The translations under genes were made by a program, and so were the position numbers. The notes under the pieces are model-generated. The model was not told where the DNA came from. It was given only the letters and a program-made list of their open reading frames with translations, and did not search any database. From Gemmatimonadaceae bacterium (GTDB lineage: Bacteria; Gemmatimonadota; Gemmatimonadetes; Gemmatimonadales; Gemmatimonadaceae): a DNA stretch of 58,734 nucleotides. Each line of letters begins with the position of its first letter. Position 1 is the stretch's first letter. Location of the stretch: positions 1-58,734 of the forward strand of contig JACCWE010000059.1 in assembly GCA_013697785.1 (NCBI GenBank). Direction: 5' to 3'. Positions 39,688 through 58,734 of this stretch are shown piece by piece.

Positions 39688-41930
39688 CGCGCTGCCCAGC
39701 CGATGAGAGGCGCGACATCCGACGCGCGCAGGCGATAGGCGCGCGTCGCCGACTCGAGCAGCTCGCACGTCGTGGGTACATCGCCGGCCATCGCGCGCGT
39801 CGTGAGTGGCGCGAGGATGTCCCGCGCGTATGCCCAATCGCGCGGCAAAGGGAGGAGCGCCATCGTCCACCCGAGGTAGCGGTGATATCCACCGCGCGCC
39901 GGCTCGGCCAACACGTGGAGCCACGCGGCCGCGAGTGAGGAGTTGAGCAGCGAGATGAGCGCGAGCGCGTCGGTCTCCTCGGCGCAGGGCACGACGTAGC
40001 AGCTATTGAGCGGCACCGTCGGATCGCCAGCGGCGAGCAGAAGCGCGCGCGGTGTACGCCCCATATCCGCCCAAACGACGCGGGTGCGCGTACTCGAGGC
40101 GGCGGGAGTGCGGAAGAGCGTCCACCATGCGCTGCCTGCGCGTGCATCGCTTCGAGTAGCGAGACGTCTGCGCCAGCGGGCGAGCCAGCGGGCTGCGTGG
40201 GGCGGGAGCGTGCTGCGCACGTTGCCTACGGCATCATGCGTCCAGATGAGATGTTCGGCGTTGGGCAACGCGCGCCACGGCGCTGTGCTTTCACCGCGGA
40301 GGAGAGGACGGAGCATCTCGCGCTCGATGGTCGCGCTGCGCCCGCCCGAGCGTACTATGATGTGCTCCGGCAGCTCGTCAGCGGCGGCCGGGTGCCGCGC
40401 CGCGAGCTCTGTCTCGCGGGCGAGCTCGTGCTCATCGCGCGTGACGACGAACGCCTCGTTGCACCCGCACTTCACGCCGAGCATCGGCGCGCCGAACGCG
40501 CTGTCTCCGATCGCAGTGCCGGCGCGCGAAACGCGGTCGAACGCATCGCGCACCGGCGGCGGGATTGCAACCCAGGGGCTCGCGGGATCCGCGTCGAGCG
40601 CGAGTCGAGTGGGCGCGACGCTCCAACGCAGCACGTCGCGCTTGCGGTGCAGCGAGGCGAGGATCGCAGGCGCGGGCGTTTCATCGTCAGCACCCTTGCG
40701 CGCGATGACGAGCGACGGGTACACCGCGGCGTCGAAGGCTGCCGGCGATTCGCTCCAATCGTCGAGCGCGATCACGCGCGCGCCGGTGCGGAGCAATCGT
40801 CGAGCGCCACCGCCCGCCAGCGCACGCCACATCTTCGCGGGAAGGAGCAGCGCGAGCGAGCCGTCGTCGCGCGTGAGCGCCAGAGATCGCTCGAGAAAGA
40901 GTGCGCCGAGGTCGACCTGGGCGGCGAAACCGGCTCCGGCGTTGGCCGCTCGTGCGCCGCGCTCCCACGCCGCACCGCCGAACACCGAATAGCGCGTGCG
41001 GAGTGCGGCCCGCATGTCGGCGGGGATGTGGTGCAGTCGCACCCAGGGCGGATTGCCAATGACGAGTTCGAAGCCGCCGCGCAGCGCGACGTCGGGGAAG
41101 TGCGTCGCCCAGGCGAAGGGAAGGGCACCTCCGGACTTGAGCGTGCGCCGGCGCGTGGCGAGCTCCCGCGCGCGTGTGCGCTCGCGCGCGAGGAGCGCGA
41201 TCTCGGTTGTGCCGAGACGCACACGCTCGCCGAATAGATCGCGGCCGCGCATCGCGGCGAGGAGATCGCGACGGCGAGCTGCGCAGCGCTGGATCTGCTC
41301 GCCCACATGTGCGAGAGCGAAGGCGCGCTCACTCCGCTGCATCGCGCGCTCGAGCGTCCGCTTGCGCGCACCCGTCGCCCGCGCGTATCGCTGGCGCATC
41401 CGCGCAATCGTGCTGCCTCCCGCACCGCGAAGCTCCTCGAACGCGTCACCCGAGAGCGAGTCGCCGACGCGGATGTGTCGGTCGAGATTCGGCAGCGGTG
41501 TCACGCGCATGCCATTGGTCTCCTCGCTTTCGATCACCACCGACAGCCAGAGGCGAAGCTCGCAGAGCCACACGGCGGTGGGGTTCACGTCGACGCCGAA
41601 GATCGATCGCGTGAGCAGGTCGCGGCGCAGCGTCGCGAGTGGGCGTGCGTCGCCCGCGCGAGATTGAAGCGAGGCAAGCGTCTCGAGCGTGTGCACGAGG
41701 AAGGCGCCGGAGCCGCACGCGGGGTCGAGCACGCGCAGCTCGGCGATGCGTGCGCGGAGAATCGGCGCGACTTCCGGGGGAATCGCCTCGCCTGCGAGCG
41801 AACGCTCTACTGAGTCGCGCGAGAGCGGCGTGTGCATCAGCGCGCTGGTCAACGCGGACCGCGTGACCTCGCCGACGAGCGATTGCGGGGTGTAAAACGC
41901 ACCGCTCGATTTGCGCTCGCGCGAGGCCAT
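39684..41930 (-). CDS. N6-adenine DNA methyltransferase (Eco57I/DrmMI-like)
   Basis: 748 residues. N-terminal GAFYTP (10-15), AdoMet motif I LDPACGSGAF (68-77), FGVDVNPTAVWLCELRLWL, and catalytic NPPW (293-296) after a roughly 130-residue helical insertion, then a C-terminal target-recognition-like region ending in SLLNSSLAAAWLHVL and YLGWTMALLPLP. It is of the size and order of Eco57I/PglX/DrmMI methylases. No nuclease domain is visible, so it is not a single-chain type IIG enzyme. Its start codon abuts the GC drop at 41931. Composition matches the chromosome to its left, not the low-GC island. Confidence 0.82.
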   Translation of the reverse strand: MASRERKSSGAFYTPQSLVGEVTRSALTSALMHTPLSRDSVERSLAGEAIPPEVAPILRARIAELRVLDPACGSGAFLVHTLETLASLQSRAGDARPLATLRRDLLTRSIFGVDVNPTAVWLCELRLWLSVVIESEETNGMRVTPLPNLDRHIRVGDSLSGDAFEELRGAGGSTIARMRQRYARATGARKRTLERAMQRSERAFALAHVGEQIQRCAARRRDLLAAMRGRDLFGERVRLGTTEIALLARERTRARELATRRRTLKSGGALPFAWATHFPDVALRGGFELVIGNPPWVRLHHIPADMRAALRTRYSVFGGAAWERGARAANAGAGFAAQVDLGALFLERSLALTRDDGSLALLLPAKMWRALAGGGARRLLRTGARVIALDDWSESPAAFDAAVYPSLVIARKGADDETPAPAILASLHRKRDVLRWSVAPTRLALDADPASPWVAIPPPVRDAFDRVSRAGTAIGDSAFGAPMLGVKCGCNEAFVVTRDEHELARETELAARHPAAADELPEHIIVRSGGRSATIEREMLRPLLRGESTAPWRALPNAEHLIWTHDAVGNVRSTLPPHAARWLARWRRRLATRSDARAGSAWWTLFRTPAASSTRTRVVWADMGRTPRALLLAAGDPTVPLNSCYVVPCAEETDALALISLLNSSLAAAWLHVLAEPARGGYHRYLGWTMALLPLPRDWAYARDILAPLTTRAMAGDVPTTCELLESATRAYRLRASDVAPLIGWAAR

Positions 41931-41962
41931 TAAGGGTTATATGATATCCCGGCGAACTTCAC
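41931..41962. repeat. Repeat R1 (pairs with R2 at 44603)
   Basis: Begins TAAGGGTTATATGATATCCC and ends CTTCAC. A related sequence at 44603-44635 shares TAAGGGTT, TATGA, TATCC and CTTCAC in the same order. Read on the minus strand it abuts the methylase start codon and contains TATAAC 5 nt before it, so it could also be a promoter of a leaderless transcript. Confidence 0.45.
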
Positions 41963-42265
41963 CCCCCCGTGACAGGGTCAGCCGAGATCGAGCCGATATT
42001 ATGCGCCCCCCTCAGCTAGTCTCGCGCGTTTTCAGTTGAAATTCTTGTGCAATTATCGGCGACATTCTACGTGAAATGAGCGAGAAATCGTGTCGGGAGA
42101 CCGAGGACAATAGCAACAAAAAAAACGACTACCATTTCAGTATTCGGCTTGCATTGAAATAATTAGGTGTGCGAAGCGACAGCGATGATATTGCAGCGCC
42201 GACGCCCAGCGAGTTAGTATCGTGTGCAGGTGAATGAGTAGTTAGCCAGACCTGGAGGCTTCGAG
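41963..42265. other. Low-GC intergenic region, no gene
   Basis: With R1 this forms a 335-bp gene-free stretch. Composition falls sharply from the methylase gene, with an A-run near 42117-42125 and an imperfect inverted repeat ATTTCA/TGAAAT (42134-42160). Its right part holds one copy of the 50-bp inverted repeat (42187-42236) and the leader of the first cassette-like gene. No tRNA or open frame with coding character. Confidence 0.6.
42187..42236 (+). repeat. 50-bp inverted repeat, left copy
   Basis: Begins GATATTGCAGCGC and contains GAGTTAGTATCGTGTG. It matches the reverse complement of 58561-58610 at 42 of 50 positions with no gap. The two copies bound 16.4 kb and both point inward. The GCAGC...GTTAG part resembles the 3' half of an integron attC site. 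Candidate terminal inverted repeat or shared recombination site. Confidence 0.75.
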
Positions 42266-42703
42266 GTGAATGCATGTGAGTTTCTCGAGCACGGTCGCGC
42301 CATTCTCGACTCGGTGCTTCTCCCGCACGGCTTCGTGTTCGAACCGGGGCTCGCAGGCGTCGGTAGCGGCGGAGCGTTTGCGCGCGGCTCCTACGTCCGA
42401 GGTTCTCACCGTTTGGAGTTCAGTGTTCGCGAGCATCTCGGCGAGGTCGTATATCGGGTCGGTGGGACGCTCATTTGTCACGAAGATTTGATGCGCGTGA
42501 TCGCCGGTCCACGACGCGCAAGGTATCCGGGATTCTCAGACGATCCGCTTGATGGATTCCGGGGTCTCAGCGACGATCTCGAGCGATACGGCAAGGTGTT
42601 TCTCCGAACCATGGACGAAGACTTTCACGCATTCGCCGAGCGCGCGGCGGCCACTCAACCGCGCAGCGGGTTCGGGCGCCTCTTCGATGTGGAAGCTGGC
42701 TAA
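42266..42703 (+). CDS. Hypothetical protein in cassette-like unit
   Basis: 145 residues, acidic, soluble, not recognised. GTG start at 42266 with GGAGG 8 nt upstream. Central pattern GGAFARGSYVRGSHRLEFSVRE suggests a small alpha/beta domain. The stop codon TAA is embedded in the left core of an attC-like site, a typical gene-cassette arrangement. Same slot in the mirrored right arm is occupied by an alpha/beta hydrolase. Confidence 0.65.
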   Translation: MNACEFLEHGRAILDSVLLPHGFVFEPGLAGVGSGGAFARGSYVRGSHRLEFSVREHLGEVVYRVGGTLICHEDLMRVIAGPRRARYPGFSDDPLDGFRGLSDDLERYGKVFLRTMDEDFHAFAERAAATQPRSGFGRLFDVEAG

Positions 42704-42795
42704 CCCGCCGTTGCAGCAGTCGAACGCACCAACTATCGTGTTCGCATTCTGATCGTCGTCCGGTGCGTTCGCAGCTGAACGCCAGGACGTTAGGC
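42698..42795 (+). other. attC: attC-like integron recombination site
   Basis: 98 bp. Left core GGCTAAC (42698-42704; consensus RYYYAAC with one mismatch) and right core GTTAGGC (42789-42795; matches GTTRRRY). Between them is a 10-bp perfect stem CGAACGCACC (42721-42730)/GGTGCGTTCG (42762-42771), then GCAGCTGAACGCC, typical of the attC 3' half. Folding of the bottom strand would give the imperfect hairpin used by IntI recombinases. Confidence 0.65.
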
Positions 42796-42821
42796 CACCA
42801 TAGAGTTCACGCGAGGTTCCA

Positions 42822-43397: not shown

Positions 43398-43413
43398 ACG
43401 CTTGAGGTGATGC

Positions 43414-43570: not shown

Positions 43571-44605
43571 ATGCTGACGATCCCGCTTCAGGTGACGCTG
43601 ATCGCGCTACTCCGCGTCCTCTTCACAACCCCCAACGCCGTATGCTCTGCGCCAGTAGGCGGACGTCCGGTCCCGGCAGACTTCGTCGGCGACAGAGTAT
43701 TCGTTCGATGGGCTGCACCCGGGAACCAATCGCTCCGGCTCTACACCGATACTGGTGGCGGGCTGCTATCGCTATTCCCCAAAGCTGTCCAACGCCTCTC
43801 GTTACCGCTCGACACCCTGACCTGGACGAATGGTGCGGACCACGGAGACTATATGATGGCGCACGTTCCCAGCGCCCTCAACGAAGCGCTCGTGCCGCCC
43901 GTTCCAAGTGCTCTTTCGATCGGATTCAACATGAAGTCGGAGGACTCCACGACGGTGCTGCTCGCCGTGGAGTCGGAATCACCACCAGATGATGAGTTTG
44001 GCTACGAATGGGATGGCCGACTCGGGGCGGGTTGGTTCGCCGATCGGGTGTGGACGATAGACTATCCCAACAGACGGTTCTACTTCGACGGCACGAAGAC
44101 CGTAGCTCCGACCGACCCAGCCTGTTGGGTGCCGCTCGGATTCAAGACCGACTCAACAGGCCACCGGACGAATAGCTTTCCGCGGATCACAGCTCGGATC
44201 GACGGAGAAAACATCCAATTCCTCGTGGATACGGGAGCGCGAATAGAACTGACAGACAACGCGTGGCGGATCGTCGGCTCGAACGAACCTCGGCACCGCG
44301 CCACGAGCTTTATTACGAGGGAGCGTTTCGAGCAATGGCACAAGAAGCATTCGGAATGGATCATCGTGCCCAACGCTGAGAAGACGGTTGGCGCAGCAAT
44401 GATACGCGTCCCGACGATTGAAGTCGGTGGACGGCGGCTCGGTCCAGTGTGGTTCACCGAACGCCCTGATGGGAATTTCCGCGACTTCATGTCCCAGTAC
44501 ATGGACAAGCCGATCGAAGGTGCCCTTGGCGGGTCGGCATGGCGCTACGTCACACTTGTCCTTGACTACCCGGGGGCCAAGGCGGCTCTTCTCACGTCAC
44601 CGTAA
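43571..44605 (+). CDS. Secreted retropepsin/pepsin-like aspartic protease homologue
   Basis: 344 residues: a signal peptide (about 1-26), then two lobes each carrying a DTG catalytic motif, YTDTGGG (D59-G62 region) and FLVDTGAR (D220-G222). A single chain with two DTG motifs resembles bilobal pepsins or fused retropepsin-like domains. A strong Shine-Dalgarno GAGGAGG precedes the ATG at 43571. Between the lobes, GAGWFADRVWTIDYPNRRFYF is typical of bacterial aspartyl protease families. Composition is well below the chromosome on the left. Confidence 0.7.
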   Translation: MLTIPLQVTLIALLRVLFTTPNAVCSAPVGGRPVPADFVGDRVFVRWAAPGNQSLRLYTDTGGGLLSLFPKAVQRLSLPLDTLTWTNGADHGDYMMAHVPSALNEALVPPVPSALSIGFNMKSEDSTTVLLAVESESPPDDEFGYEWDGRLGAGWFADRVWTIDYPNRRFYFDGTKTVAPTDPACWVPLGFKTDSTGHRTNSFPRITARIDGENIQFLVDTGARIELTDNAWRIVGSNEPRHRATSFITRERFEQWHKKHSEWIIVPNAEKTVGAAMIRVPTIEVGGRRLGPVWFTERPDGNFRDFMSQYMDKPIEGALGGSAWRYVTLVLDYPGAKAALLTSP

Positions 44606-44635
44606 GGGTTTATGAGATATCCTTCGTATCTTCAC
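44603..44635. repeat. Repeat R2 (pairs with R1 at 41931)
   Basis: TAAGGGTTTATGAGATATCC followed by TTCGTATCTTCAC, overlapping the stop of the aspartic protease gene. Same orientation as R1, 2.67 kb away. The 226 bp from here to the ADOP permease hold no credible gene. Confidence 0.45.
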
Positions 44636-44861
44636 TCCACTCCGATCTTGGATGCCCGAAACCCAACCGCGTTTCCGCTCTCAGGTTCTCGGGCTGAAGG
44701 TATCACGTTTCTGCGGAACTCAAAGCACGCTTCGGTTTCGACCTCACCTCAGCGAAACCACTCCGACCTTCACCCCCACCCCCTAGATGCACGTGGGTGT
44801 TTCGCGCAACTATGATCGCGAGCAGTAGACTCACTGCTCGTTGCCGTTCCGAGAGAAGTAC

Positions 44862-47549
44862 CTAGTCGGAAGCGAGCGCTATCGCCGGATCCACGCGGCC
44901 CGCGCGACGAGCGGGGAAATAGCACGCGACAAACCCTACGGCGAGGAGCAGAATCGACGAGGTCAAGAACACCAGCGGATCGGTGGGCGAAGTGTCGAAC
45001 AACAGATGTTCGACGAGTCGAACCAGGGCGAGAGCTCCCGCGATTCCAAGTGCACATCCCACAAGCGCCGGGGCCATCGTCCGCACCAGGACCGCCCGAA
45101 CGATCGTACGCGGTGTCGCACCCAGTGCCAATCGCAAACCTAGTTCCCGCGTCCCTCGCGCAACGGTGTAGCTTGTCACACCGAAGATGCCGATTGCCGC
45201 GAGAAGGATCGCGCAAGAGCCGAATGCTCCAACAATACCGATGACGTACCGGCGTGGCGCAAGTGCAGTCGAGAGCGAGTTTGCGACGGGTACGAATCCC
45301 AAGCCCTCGCGCGGATCGCCGACGACGAACGCCGGTTCGACTTCGCCCAACGCGCGTTGAAGCGAGGCAGCTATCACTGGGCTCGCCGAGTGCACGCGGA
45401 CAACAAGCGATAGCCAAGGCCACGGCTCCGCGGATAGCGGCACGTACACTGCCGGATCGAGGTCAGTGTCTACACCATACTGCCGCACGTCGCCGACCAC
45501 TCCAATTACGGTGGAAGGAATTGGCTGGCCAAATCCCGGACGTCCTTGTGATGAACGAAAAATCGTAATCGGCTTGCCGACTGCGTCCGCGCCAGGCCAG
45601 TATTTCCGTGCGACAGTCTCGCTGATAACTACAGTATTGGTAGGCGAGCGCATCTCATCCGGAGAAAACCATCTGCCCGCTTTCAACGGAATCCGCATTG
45701 CGCGCAGGTAGTCCTCCGTCGCTGTGACGTAGGTCGCGATGTCCTGGCTCGATGGAACTCTATCGGGAAGCTCGATATTGGTGGCCACTCCTGCTCGACC
45801 GAGCGGAAAGAAGTTGACGGCAGCTGCGTCAGTAACTCCCGGTACTGCGCGAAGGCGCTCCACGATGCGCAGATACAACGAAAGCGCATCCTGCTCAGCA
45901 GCGTACTTGGGCTTCGGAGGAAAAATCGTCCGCGACAACACATCGCGTGAATCGAAGCCGAGCTTCACGTTCTCCAGCCGTTGGTAGCTATGAATCAGCA
46001 AACCGGTTCCAACTACCATAATGATCGCGAGCGCAAACTGAACGCACGTTAGCAATGATCTCGCTCGACTCTGTTTCAACGAAGTCCCAGTGTCGGAGCG
46101 GGAGCCAAGCAGTTCTCTGTTTGCGCTTCCACGCAGTCCCGCCGCGCGTACGGCCGGAAGCACGGTAAAGACTATCGCCGTGAACGCCGTTACGGCCATC
46201 GCGACAAGTAATGAGCGCGCATCTATAGTCATCTCAGAGGCGCGCGGAAGATCGAAAGGCGCGGTGGCTCGGAGCCATTTGACGGCACCAATCGATGCCA
46301 GCACCCCTATCGTTCCTCCTACCAGGCACAGCGTAAGCATTTCTACGAGCACCTGCCGCATGACTTGCAGCCTGCTGGCTCCGAGGGAAACACGAATCGC
46401 CATCTCACGACCACGTAGTGCACCGCGAACTGCGGAAAGATTCGCGAGATTGACGCACGCGATGAGCAACATGAGCACGACAGCTGCACCAAGTGCCCAA
46501 AGCGCGGCCCGTACGCCACCCACAAGGTTTTCCCCGAGAGAATCGACATCGACACCAATCCACTGCCCTTCTTCTCGGGGGTAGTCCTGTGATATTCGGC
46601 GTTGCGTTGCTGAAAGGAGTCGCGCCGCTTGTGCAGTGCTGACTACAGGAAGCAGTCGACCGATGATGCGGCTGTCGGTATGGAAGTCGCGACTCTTGAG
46701 CGCGGGATCCCTGTCGAGAATCTGTCCGAGTGGGCGCCAGAGCTGCGCGAAATCGGGAATTGAGAAGGTGGACGGCATTACGCCGATGATCGTTGCTCTC
46801 CCGCTATCGACCGTCACTACTCGTCCAATGACGTGAGGATCGGATCCGAACATGCTTGCCCAAAGTGAATGAGAGAGCACGATGACATCTGTTCCCGACG
46901 GCAATTCTTCTTCAGCGGCAAACGTTCGTCCGAGCTCGGGCCTTGTTCCAATCAACTTGAAAAACCCCAATGATACGTATCCGGCTGCAGCCGTCTTTGC
47001 ACCGTCACGAGTCTCGATTTTTATCAGATCTCCTCGGACATACGCCATTCCCGTGAGCCCCGACGGCGACCGCGCCCAATCCTGAAACGTGGGCAGCGAA
47101 GGCATCCTCCAGTTGCCCTCGCTTCCGTGTTCAAAGAGTTCCACCAACCGGCCCGCATCGGGATACGCCAAGGGCCGCAACAATACGTGATCGATTACGC
47201 TGAAAATGGTGGCCGTCGCGCCGATGCCCAGTGCGAGCGTAAGCACTACGGTGAGAGAGAACCCCGGGCTCCTTCTTATTGCACGCCAGGCAAATCGAAA
47301 CTCACGAATGAGCGTGTCGACTGCGCCGAAGCCCAGCGCGTCCCAGCTCGCCTCCGCAATGCGCGTACGATTGCCAAGTCGCTGCGCGCTAGCGTCGCTC
47401 GCCTCCGCGTGGGATAACCCGGTAGCGCGAAAATCTCTCGCCAGAAGCTCACTGTGGAATGCAAGCTCCTGCTCGATCTCCCGCGCACGATGCGCACGAC
47501 TCATTCGCGCGATCACGCGTCGCGCCAGAGTGTAGAATCGCTCGCTCAT
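44862..47549 (-). CDS. ADOP-family ABC-type permease (MacB_PCD/FtsX, two repeats)
   Basis: 895 residues. N-terminal ADOP helical region (REIEQELAFHSELLARDF), the first membrane helix with LTLALGIGATATIFSVIDHVLL, a periplasmic MacB-type core domain, FtsX helices, then a duplicated second half ending in LRLALGATPRTIVRAVLVRT and a C-terminal membrane pair (ILLLAVGFVACYFPARRAGRVDPAIALASD). ADOPs lack their own ATPase and presumably work with an unlinked MacB-like ATPase in efflux or envelope transport. The start is 10 bp downstream of the PadR stop, so they form an operon. Confidence 0.9.
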   Translation of the reverse strand: MSERFYTLARRVIARMSRAHRAREIEQELAFHSELLARDFRATGLSHAEASDASAQRLGNRTRIAEASWDALGFGAVDTLIREFRFAWRAIRRSPGFSLTVVLTLALGIGATATIFSVIDHVLLRPLAYPDAGRLVELFEHGSEGNWRMPSLPTFQDWARSPSGLTGMAYVRGDLIKIETRDGAKTAAAGYVSLGFFKLIGTRPELGRTFAAEEELPSGTDVIVLSHSLWASMFGSDPHVIGRVVTVDSGRATIIGVMPSTFSIPDFAQLWRPLGQILDRDPALKSRDFHTDSRIIGRLLPVVSTAQAARLLSATQRRISQDYPREEGQWIGVDVDSLGENLVGGVRAALWALGAAVVLMLLIACVNLANLSAVRGALRGREMAIRVSLGASRLQVMRQVLVEMLTLCLVGGTIGVLASIGAVKWLRATAPFDLPRASEMTIDARSLLVAMAVTAFTAIVFTVLPAVRAAGLRGSANRELLGSRSDTGTSLKQSRARSLLTCVQFALAIIMVVGTGLLIHSYQRLENVKLGFDSRDVLSRTIFPPKPKYAAEQDALSLYLRIVERLRAVPGVTDAAAVNFFPLGRAGVATNIELPDRVPSSQDIATYVTATEDYLRAMRIPLKAGRWFSPDEMRSPTNTVVISETVARKYWPGADAVGKPITIFRSSQGRPGFGQPIPSTVIGVVGDVRQYGVDTDLDPAVYVPLSAEPWPWLSLVVRVHSASPVIAASLQRALGEVEPAFVVGDPREGLGFVPVANSLSTALAPRRYVIGIVGAFGSCAILLAAIGIFGVTSYTVARGTRELGLRLALGATPRTIVRAVLVRTMAPALVGCALGIAGALALVRLVEHLLFDTSPTDPLVFLTSSILLLAVGFVACYFPARRAGRVDPAIALASD

Positions 47550-47559
47550 CGGCGGGCGC

Positions 47560-47898
47560 TCACGGCTCGCTGTTCATGACGAGCGCGATCGCATCCGCGA
47601 GCCGTCCGAACGTGCTTTGCTCGATGCCGAGCTGCTTGCGTCCCGCGGCTGTCAACGTATAGTATCGCGCCCTACGCTTCGTCGGAGTAAGTTTCCACTC
47701 GGCGCGAACCAACCCCTTGAGCTCCATGCGCTGCAATGCGGGGTAGAGCGATCCCTCCTCGACCTGGAGCACGTCATTTGAGAGCTGGCGAATGTGCGCA
47801 GCGATCCCGTATCCGTGAAGTGCGCCAAGGGATAGGGTCTTAAGCACTAACATCTTTAGCGTACCGGGAAGTAGCTCGTCCTTCGAATCTTTGCCCAT
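47560..47898 (-). CDS. PadR-family transcriptional regulator
   Basis: 112 residues from the ATG at 47898: a winged helix (GTLKMLVLKTLSLGALHGYGIA, EGSLYPALQRMELKGLV, KRRARYYTLTAAGRKQL) plus a short dimerisation helix. PadR-ADOP pairs are a stereotyped arrangement in Acidobacteriota and Gemmatimonadota. It likely represses its own operon through the repeats directly upstream of its start codon. Confidence 0.92.
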   Translation of the reverse strand: MGKDSKDELLPGTLKMLVLKTLSLGALHGYGIAAHIRQLSNDVLQVEEGSLYPALQRMELKGLVRAEWKLTPTKRRARYYTLTAAGRKQLGIEQSTFGRLADAIALVMNSEP

Positions 47899-47930
47899 AC
47901 ATAGATCACCTATGCGTAGATAACCTATGG
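47899..47930 (-). promoter_or_regulatory. Tandem operator-like repeats upstream of padR
   Basis: Two 13-bp direct repeats, TAGATCACCTATG (47902-47914) and TAGATAACCTATG (47917-47929), 12/13 identical and 2 bp apart (15-bp period), directly upstream of the PadR start codon at 47898. AT-rich and placed over the expected promoter: a likely PadR autoregulatory site. Confidence 0.6.
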
Positions 47931-48286
47931 TAAATCGAGGCACGTCCGGTTGTCAAGTGTTTACCATTTGTAATACGGAATCACTCAGCCGAATCGAGTG
48001 CCGATACAGAAGGTGAAGGACCAGAGGCGCCGCGTCATTCGGAGATCGGCTGAACAGTGTGGTCTTCTGCATTCAAGCTGTGGATTTCTCGAAGTTGTTC
48101 GCTGTCGCACTTACCGTTTTCGTTCGCGCTGCAGTTGCTCCCGCCTTCCGGCCTATCGCGAAGTGCGAATGGCCTCGCGACGGAAAACTCTCTGATTGCG
48201 GCAACATCTCTTCCGCGAAAGAATTCAGGCCATTCGTCCCAGATGTACATGCGGCCACGCTATCGGCGAGCGTGGCCGCTTTGACA
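47931..48286. other. Intergenic region between padR and the Cas1 gene
   Basis: About 356 bp without a convincing gene; short frames here lack coding character. Holds the start-side flank of the padR operon and, at its right end, a strong hairpin (48251-48279). If the casposon-like element has its own terminal repeat on this side it should lie here, but I could not find a matching inverted sequence in 55039-55233. Confidence 0.5.
48251..48279. terminator. Perfect 11-bp hairpin downstream of the Cas1 gene
   Basis: GCGGCCACGCT (48251-48261), a 7-nt loop, AGCGTGGCCGC (48269-48279). It begins 7 bp past the Cas1 stop. On the plus strand it is followed by TTTGACATCATTT; on the Cas1 strand there is no T-run, so it may stop incoming transcription or act as a bidirectional or structural element. 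Confidence 0.5.
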
Positions 48287-49849
48287 TCATTTCTTCGCGA
48301 TCGATCGCGATCCGTCCCGCGATAACGCCCTGATTGCGTCCCAGTGCATCGGATGGGGGATGTACTGGCCGCGCAAGATTCGTCCGCAGTACGACCTACA
48401 CAATCCCGTCGCGGCTCGAACATCTGGCGCGCGCAGGTTCGCGAGGGTTGGGAAAATCTCCGTCGCGAAGACGTGAGCTGCTGGTATGGCTGGATGCTTC
48501 GCTTCCCACTCACGAATAGCCGCTGCTCGTTGACTACGCGCATCCCCCATCAACGCGCGAGTCTCCTCTGACGGCCCAGCGCCGCTGTCTTCACGCTGCC
48601 GACGGCGAAGCGCCGTGCGGGCATATGCCGACGCCATCGCCGGCAAGGTGGCGATGCACGCCGCGCAATAGACTCCGGTTTTCTTCTGAAATGCAGCTCC
48701 GCACCTGCGACATCGACGACCACGGGTGGAGCCGCTCGTTTTCGACAGCGGCGGCTTCTGTCGGACCGAGCTGAGAATCGGCGGAAGTCGAACGTGTCGA
48801 ACTTCGGCCTCATGCGCGGAATCGGAAGACACATTACCCGCCGCACCCGCGCGCTCGAATCGTCGAGCTACTCGGCTCGCGATCGGGTGAAGCAGCTTGG
48901 CCCACTGACTTGCGGTTTCTGAGAGCCGGTGCGCAATAGGCGGCATGAGACGGCACACGCCTTGATTTGTTTCGAAGAAATCATCGCTCGAGAACGTATG
49001 CTCCCGCGCAAGTCGAAGCACAAATGCATCCACGTAGGGTCTTACGGGTTCAAGCACATCGTACGCAAGTGAATCCCTTCCGGCGCGATCCGCGTGCAGG
49101 ATGCCGAGGCCCGGGTCGCAACCCGCCGCGAGAACCGCAATACGTGCCTCAGCGCCTGCGATGCCATAGCAATAGTTGAGGATCGCGTTGAGCGGAGTTA
49201 CTCCTTTGCGAGCGCTGTCGGTCAGCGGAGACCGGCGTTCCCCGAAGGTGCGCCAATGTTTCGGAATGCGTCCGACGTGCTTCGAAGGGAAGCGCAGCTC
49301 GACCGACTCCCATGCGTGCCAGTAGGCGTAGGCCGCGCGTGCCTCGACGTAACGCACCCGGTCCAATGTTCGTGCCTGCTGCACATGCGGCAACGCATCG
49401 CGAAGCGCCTTGGCGATCGGAGCGGAGTTCGGGATAGCATCGAGCGCATCGGCCTGTCCCGCGATCTTGGCTGCGATCAACTCGCGACTCAATTCCAGCG
49501 CGACGCCTGATGTGAGTGCGAGCGCTTGGGCGCGCCGGAGTCGCGCGTCATCGAGTCGGCACGTAGCTGTGACAGCGACTAAGTGACCATCATGGTCGAG
49601 CTGCACGACGTGCGCTCCGATTGCTTCGAGCCAGCTCAGGGCATCGAGCGACACCGTTCCCGACGTCGCATGAATAATCAAACGCTTGAGCTGCGGCGCG
49701 ACGCGTGAGAAGCGCCCGTGCCGGCGAAAGCGGCCTGCGCCGTCCGTGATCGTGAGGTGGCCTCTCTCCACGGCGATGCGAAGTCCGTATCCACTCAGCG
49801 CGAGGACGCCGCGCCGAGGCCGCATCTCACTCGAGGGGGCGATCGGCAT
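48287..49849 (-). CDS. cas1: Cas1-family integrase/endonuclease with C-terminal zinc ribbon and HTH (casposase-like)
   Basis: 520 residues. Residues about 13-330 have the Cas1 fold: N-terminal beta domain (GVLALSGYGLRIAVERGHLTI, VSLDALSWLEAIGAHVVQLD) and helical catalytic domain with EARAAYAYW (E169), CDPGLGILH (H252) and SLAYDVLEPVRPYVD (D264, E267), so the metal site looks intact. A long extension follows: zinc ribbon C380-x2-C383-x11-C395-x2-C398 and an HTH near 470-495. CRISPR Cas1 proteins are about 300-340 residues and lack this. With no CRISPR array or cas2 nearby but PolB and HNH genes adjacent, it is best read as a casposon-type integrase. Start 49849 overlaps the MerR-like stop; ATG 49825 is an alternative. 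Confidence 0.85.
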   Translation of the reverse strand: MPIAPSSEMRPRRGVLALSGYGLRIAVERGHLTITDGAGRFRRHGRFSRVAPQLKRLIIHATSGTVSLDALSWLEAIGAHVVQLDHDGHLVAVTATCRLDDARLRRAQALALTSGVALELSRELIAAKIAGQADALDAIPNSAPIAKALRDALPHVQQARTLDRVRYVEARAAYAYWHAWESVELRFPSKHVGRIPKHWRTFGERRSPLTDSARKGVTPLNAILNYCYGIAGAEARIAVLAAGCDPGLGILHADRAGRDSLAYDVLEPVRPYVDAFVLRLAREHTFSSDDFFETNQGVCRLMPPIAHRLSETASQWAKLLHPIASRVARRFERAGAAGNVSSDSAHEAEVRHVRLPPILSSVRQKPPLSKTSGSTRGRRCRRCGAAFQKKTGVYCAACIATLPAMASAYARTALRRRQREDSGAGPSEETRALMGDARSQRAAAIREWEAKHPAIPAAHVFATEIFPTLANLRAPDVRAATGLCRSYCGRILRGQYIPHPMHWDAIRALSRDGSRSIAKK

Positions 49850-50756
49850 TGGGCGTGATGGGGGTGAAAGGATTGAGTTCGGCGTGGAGCGCCGTCAGTG
49901 CGAGGCGGATCTGCGGATTCTCTCGATAACGCAACCAATACAGAAAGAGAATTGGCCAAGGCCACGAAGAATCGCGTTCCGCTTCGAGGGCTATGGCGGG
50001 TCCGAGTCCGAGGGACATGTCTAGAGCTCGACGCAACACCTCGGCGACCTGCGGCAGCTCATCGCGAGCGAGGAGCAGAGTTGCCTCATCCGCCTTGTGA
50101 AACGCGGCGGCGACAGGTCCAGGGTCAACTAGTTGGCTAAACGTCGCGAGCGCACCTGCGTGTATAAGTCCCGCCGCTTCCAGCTGCGGAAAGGCGCGTG
50201 ACAGTATCTCTCGATCGTTCGGCTCTAGGTCTGTGTAGGCGCCAGTCCCAAGCCTCTCCGCGAGATCAAGAGAATTTGTAATCGGAATTCGCCCGAGGAG
50301 TTCACGTAGGCGACGAAACCCGGGTGACCCTCCCCGTGCGCGCGCCTTTCGTGTGAGCCTAGCCCGATACCGCTCCGCTGTCTCGTCGGCCTCCTCCGAT
50401 GGATCGGACGCCGTGAGAACTTCTTCCTTCTCACCGATGAGGCGCGCAACCTCCACGCCCAGCTGGTCCCGTAGCGACTGCATCGAAACCGGGAACGCCT
50501 TCACGAAGAGTCTCCAGCGCACTACGTCGAGATCACGCGTATGCGTGAGGATAGTGCCGATCATGAGCGCCTGATCGAGTGCGATCGATGGATAGATCGA
50601 CTCTGTTCCGAGCCGCCCGTGGTGGCGGGATTTGGGCGATGGCATCACGCCCGCTTTCCGCCATCGATGGAGCTTTTCCGCAGTGAGGTCGATGCCTTGA
50701 GCAGCAGCCTCCTCGAGCAACTCGGCCATCGAAAAGGTCCCTGTAGGATCGCGCAT
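49827..50756 (-). CDS. MerR-like HTH protein of the casposon-like element
   Basis: 309 residues from the ATG at 50756. N-terminal MerR-type helix-turn-helix (FSMAELLEEAAAQGIDLTAE then KLHRWRKAGVMPSP, about 8-38), then a helical region of unknown fold. It is immediately upstream of, and overlaps, the Cas1 gene by 23 nt, so the two are co-translated. It may regulate the divergent promoter region or help Cas1 recognise ends. A longer form from a TTG at 50792 is less likely. Confidence 0.7.
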   Translation of the reverse strand: MRDPTGTFSMAELLEEAAAQGIDLTAEKLHRWRKAGVMPSPKSRHHGRLGTESIYPSIALDQALMIGTILTHTRDLDVVRWRLFVKAFPVSMQSLRDQLGVEVARLIGEKEEVLTASDPSEEADETAERYRARLTRKARARGGSPGFRRLRELLGRIPITNSLDLAERLGTGAYTDLEPNDREILSRAFPQLEAAGLIHAGALATFSQLVDPGPVAAAFHKADEATLLLARDELPQVAEVLRRALDMSLGLGPAIALEAERDSSWPWPILFLYWLRYRENPQIRLALTALHAELNPFTPITPNADRPLE

Positions 50757-50888
50757 CCTACACACTCTATAGCTGGGCGCGATCAAGAGCAAGTGTTTCC
50801 ATCAAGCATCGTATAATATCAATGCACCCGCTTGGCGAGCCTTTTCGTTACAGCTGGGCGCGAGAATGCCAACTATTTTGGAGGGCCT
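50757..50888. promoter_or_regulatory. Divergent promoter region with paired 12-bp repeats
   Basis: Separates the Cas1/MerR arm from the PolB arm. AGCTGGGCGCGA occurs twice in the same orientation (50771-50782 and 50851-50862), exactly 80 bp apart. A consensus TATAAT sits at 50812-50817 for rightward transcription, and TATAGA next to the first repeat suits leftward transcription. GGAGG precedes the rightward start codon. The repeats are candidate operators for one of the element's HTH proteins. Confidence 0.55.
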
Positions 50889-51140
50889 ATGTCAGAACCG
50901 AAATATCTCACCGCCGCAGATGTCGCCCGGATCCTGCGGGTCACCCCCGGGGCTGTGCGCATGATGCACAAGCGCGGGGCACTCACTGTGGCCGAACAGA
51001 CGGTCGGGGGAATCCACCTCTTCTTGAGGGCGGAGATTGATCGGGTGGCGCTGCTCCGAGAGAAGCCTCGAGCGAGGATCGACCATCGGAAGCCAAGGCT
51101 AGAAAGTGCGCCCGCACGCCGCGCGGGCGGTGGGCGGTAA
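50889..51140 (+). CDS. Small excisionase/MerR-like HTH protein
   Basis: 83 residues: an HTH_17-type domain (YLTAADVARILRVTPGAVRM, then MHKRGALTVAEQTVGGIHLFL) with a basic C-terminal tail. Start ATG at 50889, preceded by TTGGAGGGCC. First gene of the rightward arm; its fold matches excisionases and MerR-type winged HTHs, so it could be a repressor or a recombination directionality-like factor. Confidence 0.75.
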   Translation: MSEPKYLTAADVARILRVTPGAVRMMHKRGALTVAEQTVGGIHLFLRAEIDRVALLREKPRARIDHRKPRLESAPARRAGGGR

Positions 51141-51143
51141 TGC

Positions 51144-51692
51144 GTGCCTCGGAAGCGCCGCGCCAGTTCGAAAGGCGCGAAGAAGCCAACGAAGCGCGGA
51201 TCGCCGCACCGATCATCGGCTGCGAGTCTCCGCGCGGAGAAAGCCAAACAAGACAGCCTGGAAGTGCTAAACATTTTGCGCGCGCAAGGACTCGTGTTTT
51301 CGCAAGTGGTGCGCGAAGTCGGCACTACCTCGCGTACGGTGCGCCGGCACGTCGGCGAAGCACTGAAAACCGATACTCGTGGTCGGGTGGTCGCCATGCC
51401 ACATGACCGCATTCCGCGCACGATGCGCTTCATCACGCCACGCGGGTTGATTGCGGTGACCGTTCACGACTCGCGAATCGCGAGTGAGATCGGACGCCAC
51501 ATGTCCGCTGTCAATCGCTTCCTCGAGACGGGAGACGAGGGCCCGCTGCAGCCATTCGTTGACGAGGGAATCCGTGCGGGGCAGCTGTTCCATCCCTATG
51601 TCACCGATCCGGACACGCTTGTGCGCCTCGCCCATGCGGGCGAGGTGTCCTTCGAAGATCTCTACGCTCTCACGACAGGAGAACACAAATGA
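51144..51692 (+). CDS. HTH-containing DNA-binding protein of the element
   Basis: 182 residues from a GTG 3 nt after the preceding stop. A very basic N-terminus (RKRRASSKGAKKPTKRG), a resolvase-like HTH (FSQVVREVGTTSRTVRRHVG, about 52-71), then a mixed alpha/beta domain (ITPRGLIAVTVHDSRIASEI, MSAVNRFLETGD) and a helical end. No recognised enzyme motif. Its stop overlaps the HNH start (ATGA), so it is co-translated with the nuclease. Confidence 0.65.
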   Translation: MPRKRRASSKGAKKPTKRGSPHRSSAASLRAEKAKQDSLEVLNILRAQGLVFSQVVREVGTTSRTVRRHVGEALKTDTRGRVVAMPHDRIPRTMRFITPRGLIAVTVHDSRIASEIGRHMSAVNRFLETGDEGPLQPFVDEGIRAGQLFHPYVTDPDTLVRLAHAGEVSFEDLYALTTGEHK

Positions 51693-52126
51693 CAAACACC
51701 TCAGGAATTCCTGACCTCGATCCGATCGGCATTGAAATGCGGCGCCTCCGGCGCGAAGAACAGTTCGGCGCGTGTGCGAGCTGCGCGCTCTGCGGGATGG
51801 CCAACATCGACGTGCTCACCCCTGCGCCTCGGAGCTTCTTGGAATCGCACCACGCCGTCGGGCGCGCCAATGACAACGGCTTGACGGTGCCGCTGTGTAG
51901 GAACTGTCACGCCGAGGTGACGGAGGGTTATCGCAACGCGGGTGTTCCGCTCAATCTGCCGCCCACGTTCCTGCACAAGCTCGTTGCCGTGCTGCGCGCG
52001 CTCGGAGCATTTCTCGCGATCCTCGGACAGCGGCTGGCGACGTGGGCAGAGGCGCTCATTCGCCTCCTGGTCCGACTTGACGCGACCGTTCCATCGTGGC
52101 GGAGCTGGGAGGAAGCGAAGCCATGA
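51689..52126 (+). CDS. HNH endonuclease
   Basis: 145 residues. Zinc knuckle C32-x2-C35 and C70-x2-C73 around the HNH core: H54-H55 in LESHHAVGRANDNGL, N61/N63, and H74 in LCRNCHAEV. The last 60 residues are hydrophobic/amphipathic (FLHKLVAVLRALGAFLAILG). HNH nucleases are a regular component of casposons beside Cas1 and PolB. It overlaps both neighbours by 4 nt (ATGA at both ends), so the arm is one translationally coupled unit. Confidence 0.82.
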   Translation: MTNTSGIPDLDPIGIEMRRLRREEQFGACASCALCGMANIDVLTPAPRSFLESHHAVGRANDNGLTVPLCRNCHAEVTEGYRNAGVPLNLPPTFLHKLVAVLRALGAFLAILGQRLATWAEALIRLLVRLDATVPSWRSWEEAKP

Positions 52127-55038
52127 AACCGGCACGCGTTCCCATCGCGCTCCGCGCGTACACAGTTCGGACGGAGGCCGAAGAGGCCACGCCCAGTGTA
52201 CCGAGTCCCTCAGAGAGGAATCGAGGCCGTTGGCAACCCACATGGCCCAAATACGTCCTTGTCTTCGACACAGAAACGACGCCTGAGCAATCGCAGCGAT
52301 TGATGTTCGGGAGCTATCGCGTTGGGAGGTGGAACTCAACCGGAACTCTGGAGCTGATCCAAGAAGGACTGTTTCACGCCGACGATCTTGGAGAATGGTA
52401 TCCCGAGGGGCTCGCCGTCCTACGGGAGTACGCAGCTCGCGAATCCATTCCGCTCAGGTCGCGTCGCAAGTTTATGGACACGACGTTCTACCAGGTCGCA
52501 GCTCAGATGCGAGCTCTGGTCGTGGGATTCAATCTTCCGTTCGACCTCTCGCGTCTGGCCGTTGACGCGGGTGAGGCACGGGGTTGGTACTACGGAGGAT
52601 TCTCATTCACCCTCTGGGACTACCGGGACAAATCCACCGAGAAATACCGGCCGAATCTGTATCGGCCAAGCCTCCGTATCAAGCATGCACACAACAAGGC
52701 GGCCTTTATCGGATTCGCGAATCCGATGCGATCGGACGACAAAACAACCAAGATCGGTCACGGAAATTTTCTCGATCTTCGGACTATTGCCTACGCGCTG
52801 AGCGCCGAAGGGCACAGCCTCGCATCGGCCTGCGTGGCGTTCGGTGTCAGGCATGGAAAACTCGAGATGGAAGAACACGGACGCATTACGTGTGAATACA
52901 TCGACTACAATCGCCGCGATGTACTTGCCTCTCAGGAGTTATTGGAACGTGTGAGAGTCGAGTTTGATAAACTCAGCCTGCCTCTGCGACCCACCAAAGC
53001 ATTTTCGCCGGCCTCCATTGCGAAAGCGACACTTCGCGCTATGGGAATCAAGCCACCGATAACCAAAGCACCATCGTTTACGCCCAGTCAGATGGGCGAC
53101 GCGATGACCGCATTCTACGGAGGTCGAGCCGAGTGTCGGGTGCGACGAACCCCGGTATCTGTCGTGACGGTCGATTTTCGGTCGATGTATCCGACGGTCG
53201 ACTGCCTCATGGGGGTGTCGCGTCTCTTGAGTGCCGAGACGATCCGCTGGGAGGACTACGCGGAGCAGTTTCGCCTGCTGCTGCAACGCGCGTCGATGGA
53301 CGCGGCCTTCACGCGTGAACTCTGGCCGCAGCTCATGGGATTCGTAGAGATCGAGCCAGACGATGATATACTCCCGGTACGTGCGAAGTATTCCGAGACG
53401 AGCGACGGACTCAACATCGGCGTCAACCATCTGACTTCGTCGGTGCCATTTGTGTACGCGGCACCCGACGTGTACGCGTCGGCATTGCTTACGGGGAAAC
53501 CCGCACGGGTGAGACGCGCGTGGCGAATGGTTGGCGAAGGGCAACAAGCGGGGATGAAGCCCATCAACCTGGGCGGAACGATTGAGATAGATCCGTACAC
53601 GGATGATCTCTTTCGCTTGCTGATTGAAGAGCGCGTTCGCGTCAAGACCTCCGCCGAGCTGCCACGGGAGGAGATCGCCAGGGTCGAACTGCTACTCAAG
53701 ATCATAGCGAATAGCGGTGGCTACGGCATCTTCGCCGAGTTGAACCGAGAGGATCTCCCGAGCGACAAGAGTGCGAGCATCACTGTCTTTTCAAACGGTG
53801 GGTCGTTCGAGCAAATGACCGAAGCGCCGGAGGACGCGGGCGAATTTTGCTTCGCGCCGATCGCAGCTATGATCGCGGCAGCTGCGCGACTCATGCTTGC
53901 AATCTTGGAACGTTGCGTCACCGACCTCGGTGGCACATACGCGTTCTGTGACACGGACTCGATGGCCATCGTTGCAAGCGAGACGGGAGGTCTCCTCGCA
54001 TGCGAGGGTGGGCCACTCAGGACGAGCGATGGCGCTCCTGCAATCCAAGCGCTGTCCTGGCGCGAGGTCCAAGCTATCCAATCCCGCTTCGATGCACTCA
54101 GTCCGTACGACCTCGCTGTCATTCCGTCGATCTTGAACGTTGAGAAGGTGAACTTCGCGAAAGGGGGCGGACAGCGAGAGATCATGGCATACGTCGTCTC
54201 CGCCAAACGCTACGTCCTTTATCACTTCGATGATGACGGCTCGCTCGTTCTCGACAAGTGTTCGAAACACGGACTTGGCCATCTCCTAAGTCCACTGCCG
54301 ACAGACAGCACGGAGAGATGGCCCGAAGTGCTCTGGCGCCTGATTCTTTGCGAGGCCTTGGGAATTCCACACGAGGCGCCGGAGTGGCTGAAGCTCCCCG
54401 CCATCACGAGAGTCTCCGTCAGATCACCCTCGTACTTCCGTGGATTCCTACGACGGCACGCTGACATGCCATACGCCGAGCGCATCAAACCATTTGGTTT
54501 TTTGATAGCGTGCCAAGTCGCACGCTTTGGCCATCCAGAGGGTGCGAATCCTAAAGCCTTTCATTTGCTATCGCCGTACTCGGTTACTCCGTCTGACTGG
54601 GCTTCGCAGCTCTGGACGGATACCTATTCGGGCAACGAGTACGCTGTCACCACTGCGCTCAGCTATCAGCCAGGAGTCGTGCGCGTTCGCTCGATTGCGG
54701 ACATCAAAGCGGAATTTCTTGCGCACGGCGAGGTAAAAAGCGCTACGGCTGATGGTGAACCGGCGGGCGCGAGTTCACGAGGACTGCTGCAACGCCGACA
54801 CGTGACGCCGTCGGAAATCCGGCTCATTGGAAAGGAGTCGAACAGCTTCGAGTTGGTTGAGGCTGGACTGATCGGTGATTGGCGCGAGATCCTGAGCAGC
54901 TACACAGACAACGAGAACCGACCTTCGGAGGAGCAACTGATGACGGAACCTGCAGTGGTGATCGCGCGAAGGTGGAATGTCAGCGTGCGGACGGTGCGCG
55001 CGTGGAGACGGCGTGTGCGCGAATCGCGCTACCAATAG
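52123..55038 (+). CDS. polB: Family-B DNA polymerase with proofreading exonuclease and C-terminal HTH
   Basis: 971 residues from the ATG at 52123 (GGGAGG upstream, ATGA overlap with HNH). Exonuclease motifs FDTET (D49, E51), FNLPFD (N137, D141) and YNRRD (Y262, D266) are intact. Polymerase motif A VDFRSMYPT (D351), motif B KIIANSGGYG (K526, N530, Y534; one residue longer than the usual KxxxNSxYG), motif C FCDTDS (D610, D612), and KRY in SAKRYVLY. The C-terminal 30 residues form an HTH (VVIARRWNVSVRTVRAWRRR). Expected to replicate the element, as in self-synthesising transposons. Not a chromosomal Pol II: context, size and tail differ. Confidence 0.88.
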   Translation: MKPARVPIALRAYTVRTEAEEATPSVPSPSERNRGRWQPTWPKYVLVFDTETTPEQSQRLMFGSYRVGRWNSTGTLELIQEGLFHADDLGEWYPEGLAVLREYAARESIPLRSRRKFMDTTFYQVAAQMRALVVGFNLPFDLSRLAVDAGEARGWYYGGFSFTLWDYRDKSTEKYRPNLYRPSLRIKHAHNKAAFIGFANPMRSDDKTTKIGHGNFLDLRTIAYALSAEGHSLASACVAFGVRHGKLEMEEHGRITCEYIDYNRRDVLASQELLERVRVEFDKLSLPLRPTKAFSPASIAKATLRAMGIKPPITKAPSFTPSQMGDAMTAFYGGRAECRVRRTPVSVVTVDFRSMYPTVDCLMGVSRLLSAETIRWEDYAEQFRLLLQRASMDAAFTRELWPQLMGFVEIEPDDDILPVRAKYSETSDGLNIGVNHLTSSVPFVYAAPDVYASALLTGKPARVRRAWRMVGEGQQAGMKPINLGGTIEIDPYTDDLFRLLIEERVRVKTSAELPREEIARVELLLKIIANSGGYGIFAELNREDLPSDKSASITVFSNGGSFEQMTEAPEDAGEFCFAPIAAMIAAAARLMLAILERCVTDLGGTYAFCDTDSMAIVASETGGLLACEGGPLRTSDGAPAIQALSWREVQAIQSRFDALSPYDLAVIPSILNVEKVNFAKGGGQREIMAYVVSAKRYVLYHFDDDGSLVLDKCSKHGLGHLLSPLPTDSTERWPEVLWRLILCEALGIPHEAPEWLKLPAITRVSVRSPSYFRGFLRRHADMPYAERIKPFGFLIACQVARFGHPEGANPKAFHLLSPYSVTPSDWASQLWTDTYSGNEYAVTTALSYQPGVVRVRSIADIKAEFLAHGEVKSATADGEPAGASSRGLLQRRHVTPSEIRLIGKESNSFELVEAGLIGDWREILSSYTDNENRPSEEQLMTEPAVVIARRWNVSVRTVRAWRRRVRESRYQ

Positions 55039-55228: not shown

Positions 55229-55235
55229 TAGCGTT
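55229..55235 (-). other. attC left-core-like sequence after the DUF3800 gene
   Basis: Reading on the minus strand, GGCTAAC overlaps the DUF3800 stop codon exactly as at 42698. A stem GTGCC(C)TTC/GAAGGCAC with GGCGG/CCGCC inside follows, but no convincing right core within about 100 bp, so only a partial site is supported. Confidence 0.35.
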
Positions 55236-55956
55236 AGCCCACGGAAAGCCAACTATCGTTCGTCGGCCAATTCTTGTATTTAGTCGGGAAAAGTAGACGC
55301 CTCTTCCCTCGTGCGTGGGCGGATATTTCTCGGCGAAAATAAGTCGTGCAATCGCCAGCAACCATGGCGAGTGTGTACACAAAAATATCCGCGAGTTGAA
55401 GTAGGCGACTATGATCAGAGCGCGTGTGATGAATAGTGTCCACAATTCGGTTAATTGCACGGCCGAATATGAAATCAGTACCACGTGCCTTGTATTCGCT
55501 TAAGCTTGCGACGTTCGTACCTGCGATTTCTTTGTCATCGTCTGCGATTAACAGCGCGAGCGATTGTTCATGTTTCATGTAGTCTTGTACTTTCTCGATC
55601 AAGAACATGAACGCGATGTTCTCATGCTTTGCCGCAACCATCTTAGATGGATCAAGGCGTATCACTATCCGACCGAGGCCTTCTGTCTCATCTATCGCGT
55701 CAAGTAACTCCTTGTAGAGCGCGATACGCTCTGCGATAGCACGACCCTTGTACGCTCCCTTTCCATGAACGATCTCGTTCCCGTGAAACTCGTTCTTGGG
55801 ATTGAGAACTGAAGTCCCAAAGTACTTCGTTGCAATTGTGGACAGGGTTTCATCGATGGACTGCACCGAGCGCTCCGGAAATGCGAGCGCGCACAGCCAG
55901 TGAAAAGGCTGCGTGGGTGGTGCATGCTTGACTTCGTCTATGTAGACGAGATGCAC
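55234..55956 (-). CDS. DUF3800-domain protein
   Basis: 240 residues from a GTG at 55956. It opens with LVYIDEV (the YxDE signature of DUF3800, an RNase H-like fold), then GRIVIRLDPSKM, LALLIADDDKEIA with further acids that would complete a metal site, and RLLQLADIFVYTLA. DUF3800 proteins are widespread on mobile elements and in defence islands and may be nucleases. It stands alone between the polymerase and the DinB-like gene, with 200 bp of non-coding sequence upstream (55957-56156), and has low GC. Confidence 0.78.
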   Translation of the reverse strand: MHLVYIDEVKHAPPTQPFHWLCALAFPERSVQSIDETLSTIATKYFGTSVLNPKNEFHGNEIVHGKGAYKGRAIAERIALYKELLDAIDETEGLGRIVIRLDPSKMVAAKHENIAFMFLIEKVQDYMKHEQSLALLIADDDKEIAGTNVASLSEYKARGTDFIFGRAINRIVDTIHHTRSDHSRLLQLADIFVYTLAMVAGDCTTYFRREISAHARGKRRLLFPTKYKNWPTNDSWLSVG

Positions 55957-56738: not shown

Positions 56739-56800
56739 CTCAGAGGTAGGGTGGCCGACGCGGCTCCGTAAACTGCATCGGGTTGTTAGGTCACAGGCGT

Positions 56801-57370: not shown

Positions 57371-57392
57371 TGGTACCTCGCGAGGATGCTAT

Positions 57393-57493
57393 TGTGAACG
57401 GACGCCAGATTTCAGCTGCGAAGGCGCACACGTGATCTATGCCGCCGGTCCGGGGCGGTGCGCGCCTTCCTCGGCTGCAGCGATCCGTTGGGC
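57393..57493 (-). other. attC: attC-like site between hydrolase and paralogue genes
   Basis: On the minus strand: left core GCCCAAC (57487-57493; matches RYYYAAC), stem GAAGGCG(C)GCAC paired with GTGCGCCTTC, then GCAGCTGAA as in the 42698-42795 site, and a degenerate right core GTTCACA (57393-57399). It lies between the hydrolase stop and the paralogue leader, the same relative place as the left-arm attC. Confidence 0.5.
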
Positions 57494-58525: not shown

Positions 58526-58560
58526 GTGGTACAGTAATCCGTCTTTGACTGCCAACTTCC

Positions 58561-58610: not shown

Positions 58611-58734
58611 TGAACCGCCCCGGGTTTCTCGGAGACTCAGTTAGTTGAGTGTCCCAGCAGTTGCTGGTGCTGTTTCGAGTTGAGCAAACTGCGCCTCATA
58701 TGCTACTGGGGGAAGATAGCCGAGCGGTTCGAGC
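58611..58734 (-). mobile_element. IS3-family insertion sequence, one end (continues past the window)
   Basis: Starts with TGAACCGCCCCGGGTTTCTC, the terminal inverted repeat type of many IS3-family elements, followed by GGAGACTC and the 3' end of the transposase gene. The other end, and so the target duplication, lies outside the window. Confidence 0.8.
58641..58734 (-). CDS. IS3-family transposase (OrfB), C-terminal fragment
   Basis: The last 30 codons are visible: LEPLGYLPPVAYEAQFAQL and a short tail before TAA (58641-58643). The LGYLPPVAYEAQ stretch is the conserved end of the IS3 rve-type integrase domain (the usual form is LGYLSPAEYE). The gene runs on beyond the right edge; DDE residues are not in view. 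Confidence 0.75.
   Translation of the reverse strand, partial: LEPLGYLPPVAYEAQFAQLETAPATAGTLN

Follow-up and report, generated by a model that had tools for sequence, protein, structure and literature searches.

The CRISPR adaptation enzyme is proposed to descend from casposases. In the family 3 casposon AceAut-C1, from Ca. Acetothermum autotrophicum, Cas1 carries a zinc-binding domain and a helix-turn-helix (HTH) domain at its C-terminus (Krupovic 2014, PMC4046053), and a review from 2023 gives this arrangement again (PMC9939771). Similar HTH domains on Cas1 and PolB were reported for family 2 in 2014 (PMC4046053). The role of the C-terminal HTH in casposases is an open question; the domain is lost in CRISPR Cas1 (PMC6977970). 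Here a casposase from a Gemmatimonadaceae bacterium was examined together with its relatives. What is new is that most members of a well-supported clade, which spans at least three phyla and always sits outside CRISPR loci, carry the ribbon and HTH tail.

The casposase and its C-terminal tail

The window, the whole 58,734-nucleotide stretch of DNA analysed, contains the casposase gene at 48287..49849 on the minus strand. A first-pass annotation had given these coordinates correctly, without the strand. The 520-aa product consists of a core (residues 12-337), a linker (340-376), the predicted zinc ribbon (380-398), helices (404-451) and an HTH (458-510). Pfam Cas_Cas1 matched residues 21-301 (E 1.5e-36), and structural alignment of the model to Cas1 extended to about residue 337. 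Counted from these two ends, 183-220 residues lie past the Cas1 core, in agreement with the estimate of about 190 made in the annotation. The putative catalytic residues E169, H252 and E267 align with conserved Cas1 residues, and all are invariant in the family.

The cysteine segment, C380-x2-C383-x11-C395-x2-C398 (48653..48712, minus strand, residues 380-399), has its four cysteines exactly where they had been claimed. About 20 relatives, drawn from three phyla and roughly 35-70% identical, share a CxxC-x(9-13)-CxxC/CxxxC pattern. Because it recurs in these proteins while the linker preceding it is unconserved, the pattern is not due to chance. The C-terminal HTH bundle (48320..48478, minus strand, residues 458-510) has the motif TGL-x3-YC-x2-I-x2-G-x3-PHPxHW. 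AlphaFold2 models placed helices at 474-481 and 485-492, which bears out the HTH annotated near 470-495.

The full-length AlphaFold2 model was built from a seven-sequence alignment (mean pLDDT 78.7). The Cas1 fold was confident, the 340-376 linker was disordered, the cysteine segment scored about 69 and the HTH bundle 81-87. When the tail was modelled alone (mean pLDDT 81.0), the HTH region reached about 90 and the cysteine segment 73-79; over both models the 458-510 bundle scored 81-93. C380, C383, C395 and C398 form a predicted zinc ribbon in a segment modelled with only moderate confidence. The best structural match of the full model was the M. mazei casposase bound to its integration product (6opm; Z 30.2, 302 residues); A. 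fulgidus Cas1 ranked below it (Z 27.5). Fold matches of the tail HTH were modest, the best having Z 6.2 over 66 residues, and the domain resembles XRE-type repressors and restriction-modification controller proteins. A fold search with the tail gave no significant match and returned only HTH rows (XRE-type and POU/HNF-1 type, Z 4-6). A PDB profile search with the tail gave only weak matches (E 0.1-0.8), which were ribosomal L37e zinc ribbons and XRE proteins.

The element, its ends and its genes

The gene belongs to a bacterial casposon of roughly 16.9 kb, plus an IS3 copy inside it, and the casposon sits within a host type IIG-like restriction-modification gene. The terminal inverted repeats (TIRs) are 313 bp long and imperfect, with the left end at window position 41934 and the right end on contig C112. 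The left TIR (GGGTTATATGATATCCC...GAACTTCACCCCCCC..., 41934..42246, plus strand) is identical to the right arm over its first 84 bp and alignable over about 267 bp, and a further 60-bp pair lies at 42187-42246 and 58551-58610. The latter interval (minus strand) is the inner part of the right TIR, which is interrupted by an IS3-family insertion. The end of this insertion occupies 58611..58734, and a copy of the IS is on contig C13. The window contig stops inside the IS3-family copy, whose two ends are window position 58611 and the start of C112; from this we infer the join window - IS3 - C112. The left copy of the 14-bp target site duplication (TSD), CGCGAGGCCATTAA, is at 41920..41933, and the second copy is on C112 directly after the right TIR. 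A length of 14 bp agrees with the casposon superfamily, in which the TSD median is about 15 bp, and was likewise found in the other mapped elements of the relatives. A subterminal box, AACTTCACCCCCCC, occurs at window position 41955 and again on C112, where it adjoins the missing N-terminal half of the host gene. These are the only two copies in the genome, and both are at the element ends. Two other placements of the ends were rejected. No inverted repeats were found near cas1/polB (47.9-48.3 kb and 55-56 kb), the true left end being 6.3 kb farther out, and the 42187-42246/58551-58610 pair as the entire TIR was ruled out, as it is the inner part of the 313-bp repeat.

The C-terminal part of the host gene, with an Eco57I methylase domain, lies at 39684..41930 (minus strand), and its N-terminal part is on C112. 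Joining the flanks over one TSD copy produced a 1093-codon open frame (...KAFESLMASRERKSSGAFYTPQ...), so the empty site restores the gene. In a relative, G001, the element has inverted repeats (GGGTTAAGAGA...), the AACTTCACCCCCCC subterminal box and a 14-bp duplication, and it too is inserted in a type IIG-like restriction-modification gene (PADLOC match to type IIG restriction-methylation enzymes, E 2e-42). Another insertion, in G009, is at the same place in the host gene as that of the window, and the G001 insertion is elsewhere in that gene; therefore three elements occupy one gene family.

The casposase gene overlaps by 23 bp at its start with a gene for a 321-aa protein (49827..50792, minus strand), which has no Pfam match and adjoins cas1 also in G131, G001 and G1158. 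Next come, all on the plus strand, genes for a small MerR/excisionase-like HTH protein (50832..51140; kept in G131, G001 and G436), an HTH protein conserved in most relatives (51144..51692), an HNH endonuclease-like protein conserved in relatives (51689..52126) and a family B DNA polymerase (PolB, 52096..55038). PolB has exonuclease motif residues D58 and E60, conserved polymerase motifs (DFRSMYPT in the motif A region; DTDS, 619-622, as motif C) and a C-terminal HTH. A DUF3800 protein (55234..55956, minus strand) is probable cargo. A cargo region at 43571..47943 contains an aspartyl-protease-like gene (43571-44605, plus strand), a MacB-like permease gene called by eye (44862-47549, minus strand) and a PadR regulator gene (47560-47943, minus strand).

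Just inside the left end is an integron-type gene cassette with a 145-aa ORF (42266..42797, plus strand; attC at about 42692-42797), and an array of matching attC sites is present on contig C13 (L049). A 190-aa gene, function unassigned, is duplicated in inverted orientation near both element ends (42765-43404 and 56794-57425, 80% identity). Elsewhere the window contains a direct repeat of about 575 bp (13272-13843 and 28511-29085, 72% identity).

Deleted and decayed elements were found among the relatives. Some internally deleted elements retain the TSD and both ends. In those of L017 and L107 the tails of Cas1 and PolB meet back to back, and in those of L108, L109 and L110 Cas1 is truncated at the start. 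At L017 1010-7180 two casposon ends lie in tandem and share a single 14-bp TSD, the second end starting straight after it. The first element carries the internal deletion that brings the tails of PolB and Cas1 together, and the host gene is partly missing after the second. The G131 casposase gene is broken between zinc ribbon and HTH (L014 10907-11699, L015 9801-11303), apparently by an IS21-type insertion, since the flanking frames resemble istA and istB. In G269 a perfect 81-bp tandem duplication (L033 11537-11698) lies next to decayed casposase fragments.

Relatives of the tailed casposase and their target sites

A scan of genome contigs with the single casposase sequence found no relatives, and a scan with an alignment found six, belonging to the phyla Gemmatimonadota, Acidobacteriota and Chloroflexota. 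The GTDB family and order of the window's genome are also those of gemmatimonadotal relatives. Searches of about 400 genomes per phylum gave strong matches in 9/396 acidobacterial genomes, 6/400 chloroflexotan genomes and a handful of the 395 gemmatimonadotal genomes. In the two profile searches a wide gap separated these matches (E < 1e-50) from CRISPR-like Cas1 (E > 1e-30). No tailed relative was detected in plasmid, phage and viral-contig collections, and related PolB was also absent where searched; plasmid matches to Cas1 were mostly annotated as CRISPR Cas1. PolB is near Cas1 in most relative loci with sufficient flank, and the PolB, HNH and HTH neighbours are conserved across the three phyla.

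The cysteine pairs are present in G000, G001, G131, G434, G435, G443, G781, G765, G669 (two), G520 and G530, and also in G599, G524, G1072, G1158 (two), G1176 and G871 (two). They are half present in the G009 fragment. G203 and G436 lack the cysteines, retain the HTH and seem otherwise normal. In the Cas1 core tree a branch with support 98/99 set apart all 20 of the tailed proteins that were included. A pair from G893 adjoins this group, and CRISPR Cas1 and M. mazei lie beyond; family 2 is represented by M. mazei as a single row on a long branch outside the tailed clade. G893 has three Cas1 copies (L117, L119, L120) without the tail, and the two in the tree are close to a PolB-like gene. As G203 and G436 pair as sisters there, one ribbon loss explains both, provided that the root is outside the clade. 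The proposal in the annotation of a separate casposase group is therefore borne out in part. The tailed casposases are one clade, but the ribbon and HTH order is not new by itself, as AceAut-C1 was described in 2014, and the clade includes two members without the ribbon, so the ribbon on its own does not delimit a group.

The gene encodes a Cas1-type protein that, by analogy with studied casposases, would be the integrase of a mobile element. An alternative is that it is an ordinary CRISPR-associated Cas1 with an odd tail, and its score does exceed the NCBIfam general cas1 cut-off. The casposase assignment is nonetheless supported by the TIRs, the 14-bp TSD and the PolB and HNH neighbours, with neither Cas2 nor CRISPR context at the locus. 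The window's genome has a single Cas1 and zero Cas2, so that Cas2 beside Cas1, the mark of CRISPR adaptation, is found nowhere in it. Among 21 genomes of the comparison, this one included, Cas2 was absent in 19 and on a different contig in the other two. Together with the branch that splits the tailed group from CRISPR Cas1, these results leave an ordinary CRISPR Cas1 next to impossible. The same tail within ordinary CRISPR-Cas loci, an outcome that the annotation had named as contrary to its reading, was searched for among the relatives and none was found.

All 8/8 independent mapped sites in Acidobacteriota and Chloroflexota have TTGAC (once TTGAG) at the TSD end closer to the host gene; 17-18 bp on comes a -10-like hexamer (TACACT, TAAGAT, TATGCT, TACGAT, AATACT, TAGCCT, TACGGT). 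The promoter-like target sites are in L057, L106, L108-L111, L107, L105 with L123/L124, L113 with L127/L128, and L114 with L129. Insertions in these phyla fall 9 bp upstream of the -35 box, leaving the promoter itself intact on one side, and most TSDs begin GTCAA. With 642 other TTGAC sites from these loci as background, each of the eight ranked in the top 0.6-5.3%. None of 20000 random draws of eight sites reached the observed summed promoter score; the promoter idea came from these eight sites themselves, and spacing and scoring followed the standard promoter model. One targeted promoter has tRNA-Gln downstream. By reading of translations, the genes behind others probably include valS, a SufU/IscU-like gene, a radical-SAM gene and an Rrf2-type regulator. 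The rule does not hold for the sites of the window, G001 and G009; the window's group inserts in coding DNA without promoter-like sequence.

Archaeal casposons adjoin tRNA or aEF-2 genes (PMC4046053), and promoter targeting is unmentioned in the casposon target-site accounts of PMC4046053 and PMC6614799. We tentatively propose, as a possibility on the doubtful side, that across several phyla of the ribbon and HTH clade the tail or the whole integrase recognises sigma-70-type promoters as landing sites, from which the gemmatimonadotal branch, including the window's element, has departed. If so, promoter-targeting casposons insert 9 bp upstream of -35 and spare the host promoter on one side.

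Role of the tail and comparison with known systems

The explanation that we regard as probable for the locus as a whole is a casposon integrase with a tethered DNA-binding tail, in which the HTH docks on the element ends and the ribbon is optional. By comparison with the structure of the M. mazei casposase, the core would join the element's 3' ends to a staggered target, and subsequent repair would yield the 14-bp duplication. The C-terminal tail would be the tethered DNA-binding unit. Its HTH would dock the integrase onto the ends of the element, and the ribbon, which not every family member has, may add contacts or steady the tether.

That the tail reads the element ends appears somewhat likely from sequence comparison. 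Ends are favoured over target because PolB of related elements carries a similar C-terminal HTH, and both enzymes must find the ends. The Cas1 tail profile and the G435 PolB tail share an HTH (hhalign probability 80, E 1.4e-5), and the PolB tails of G765, G669 and others resemble that of G435 by eye. This argument rests on the relatives, since the tail of the window's PolB carries a different, HTH_23-like motif, unlike the Cas1-tail HTH. Removal of the HTH from the M. mazei casposase abolished integration, and the isolated purified HTH domain did not bind DNA (PMC6977970). G436, which has no ribbon, retains the family TIR tip GGGTTAAGAGAGAAG and lacks the AACTTCACCCCCCC box. The ribbon is therefore unneeded to read the TIR tip; it could read the AACTTCACCCCCCC box, for which this single case is a hint.

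Other roles for the tail were weighed against docking on the ends. The ribbon and HTH might instead recognise a short motif in the target, such as TTGAC and its surroundings, and so place the insertion. The eight acidobacterial and chloroflexotan sites, with their motif and hexamer above background, argue for target reading, as does the sequence-specific target choice of A. boonei (PMC6614799), but the window's group bears the same tail and uses coding DNA, and it is hard to see what a similar HTH on PolB would contribute to choosing a target. Target reading is accordingly considered unlikely. It is doubtful, if a little less so, that the cysteines form no DNA-binding ribbon and act only in bracing the tail or in contacts between subunits. 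The cysteine-free proteins of G203 and G436, with their HTH kept, the TIR tip still present in G436 and the moderate pLDDT of the cysteine segment are all consistent with such bracing; on the other side, conservation of the CxxC pairs across three phyla does not extend to the residues around them. The likeness of the HTH to XRE-type repressors and restriction-modification controller proteins could also mean that the tail mainly autoregulates the divergent casposase and polymerase promoters. This is highly improbable, as the M. mazei HTH is required for integration in vitro by purified protein (PMC6977970).

Docking on the ends with an optional ribbon thus remains our preferred reading. The relatives constitute a resource of about 20 bacterial casposases that share this tail, with two natural ribbon losses, exact ends and 14-bp TSDs. 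With a clear target rule in two phyla and this set of tails, the DNA target of the tail is directly testable. Bacterial casposons are also less rare than the handful usually cited.

MqsA (PDB 3gn5) likewise has a zinc-binding part followed by an XRE-type HTH. It differs in being an antitoxin and regulator, and its Foldseek match to the tail was not significant (E 0.13). The M. mazei casposase (family 2, 6opm) shares the Cas1 core fold, catalytic residues and a C-terminal HTH, but a zinc ribbon is unmentioned in the structure paper (PMC6977970) and in the core tree the protein falls, on a long branch, outside the tailed group. Family 2 casposons have the same Cas1, PolB, HNH and HTH set, with a similar HTH on Cas1 and PolB (here in acidobacterial relatives); they differ in their archaeal hosts and in targets that include tRNA 3' ends. 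The window's element and its relatives have bacterial hosts, as family 3 casposons do. Within family 3, NitAL212-C1 also encodes a bacterial casposase joined to an HTH and a zinc-binding domain, the latter at the N-terminus (PMC4046053). AceAut-C1, compared by description, resembles the window's element in its C-terminal zinc-binding domain and HTH on Cas1, its bacterial host and its PolB, and differs in being a single thermophilic example in PMC4046053.
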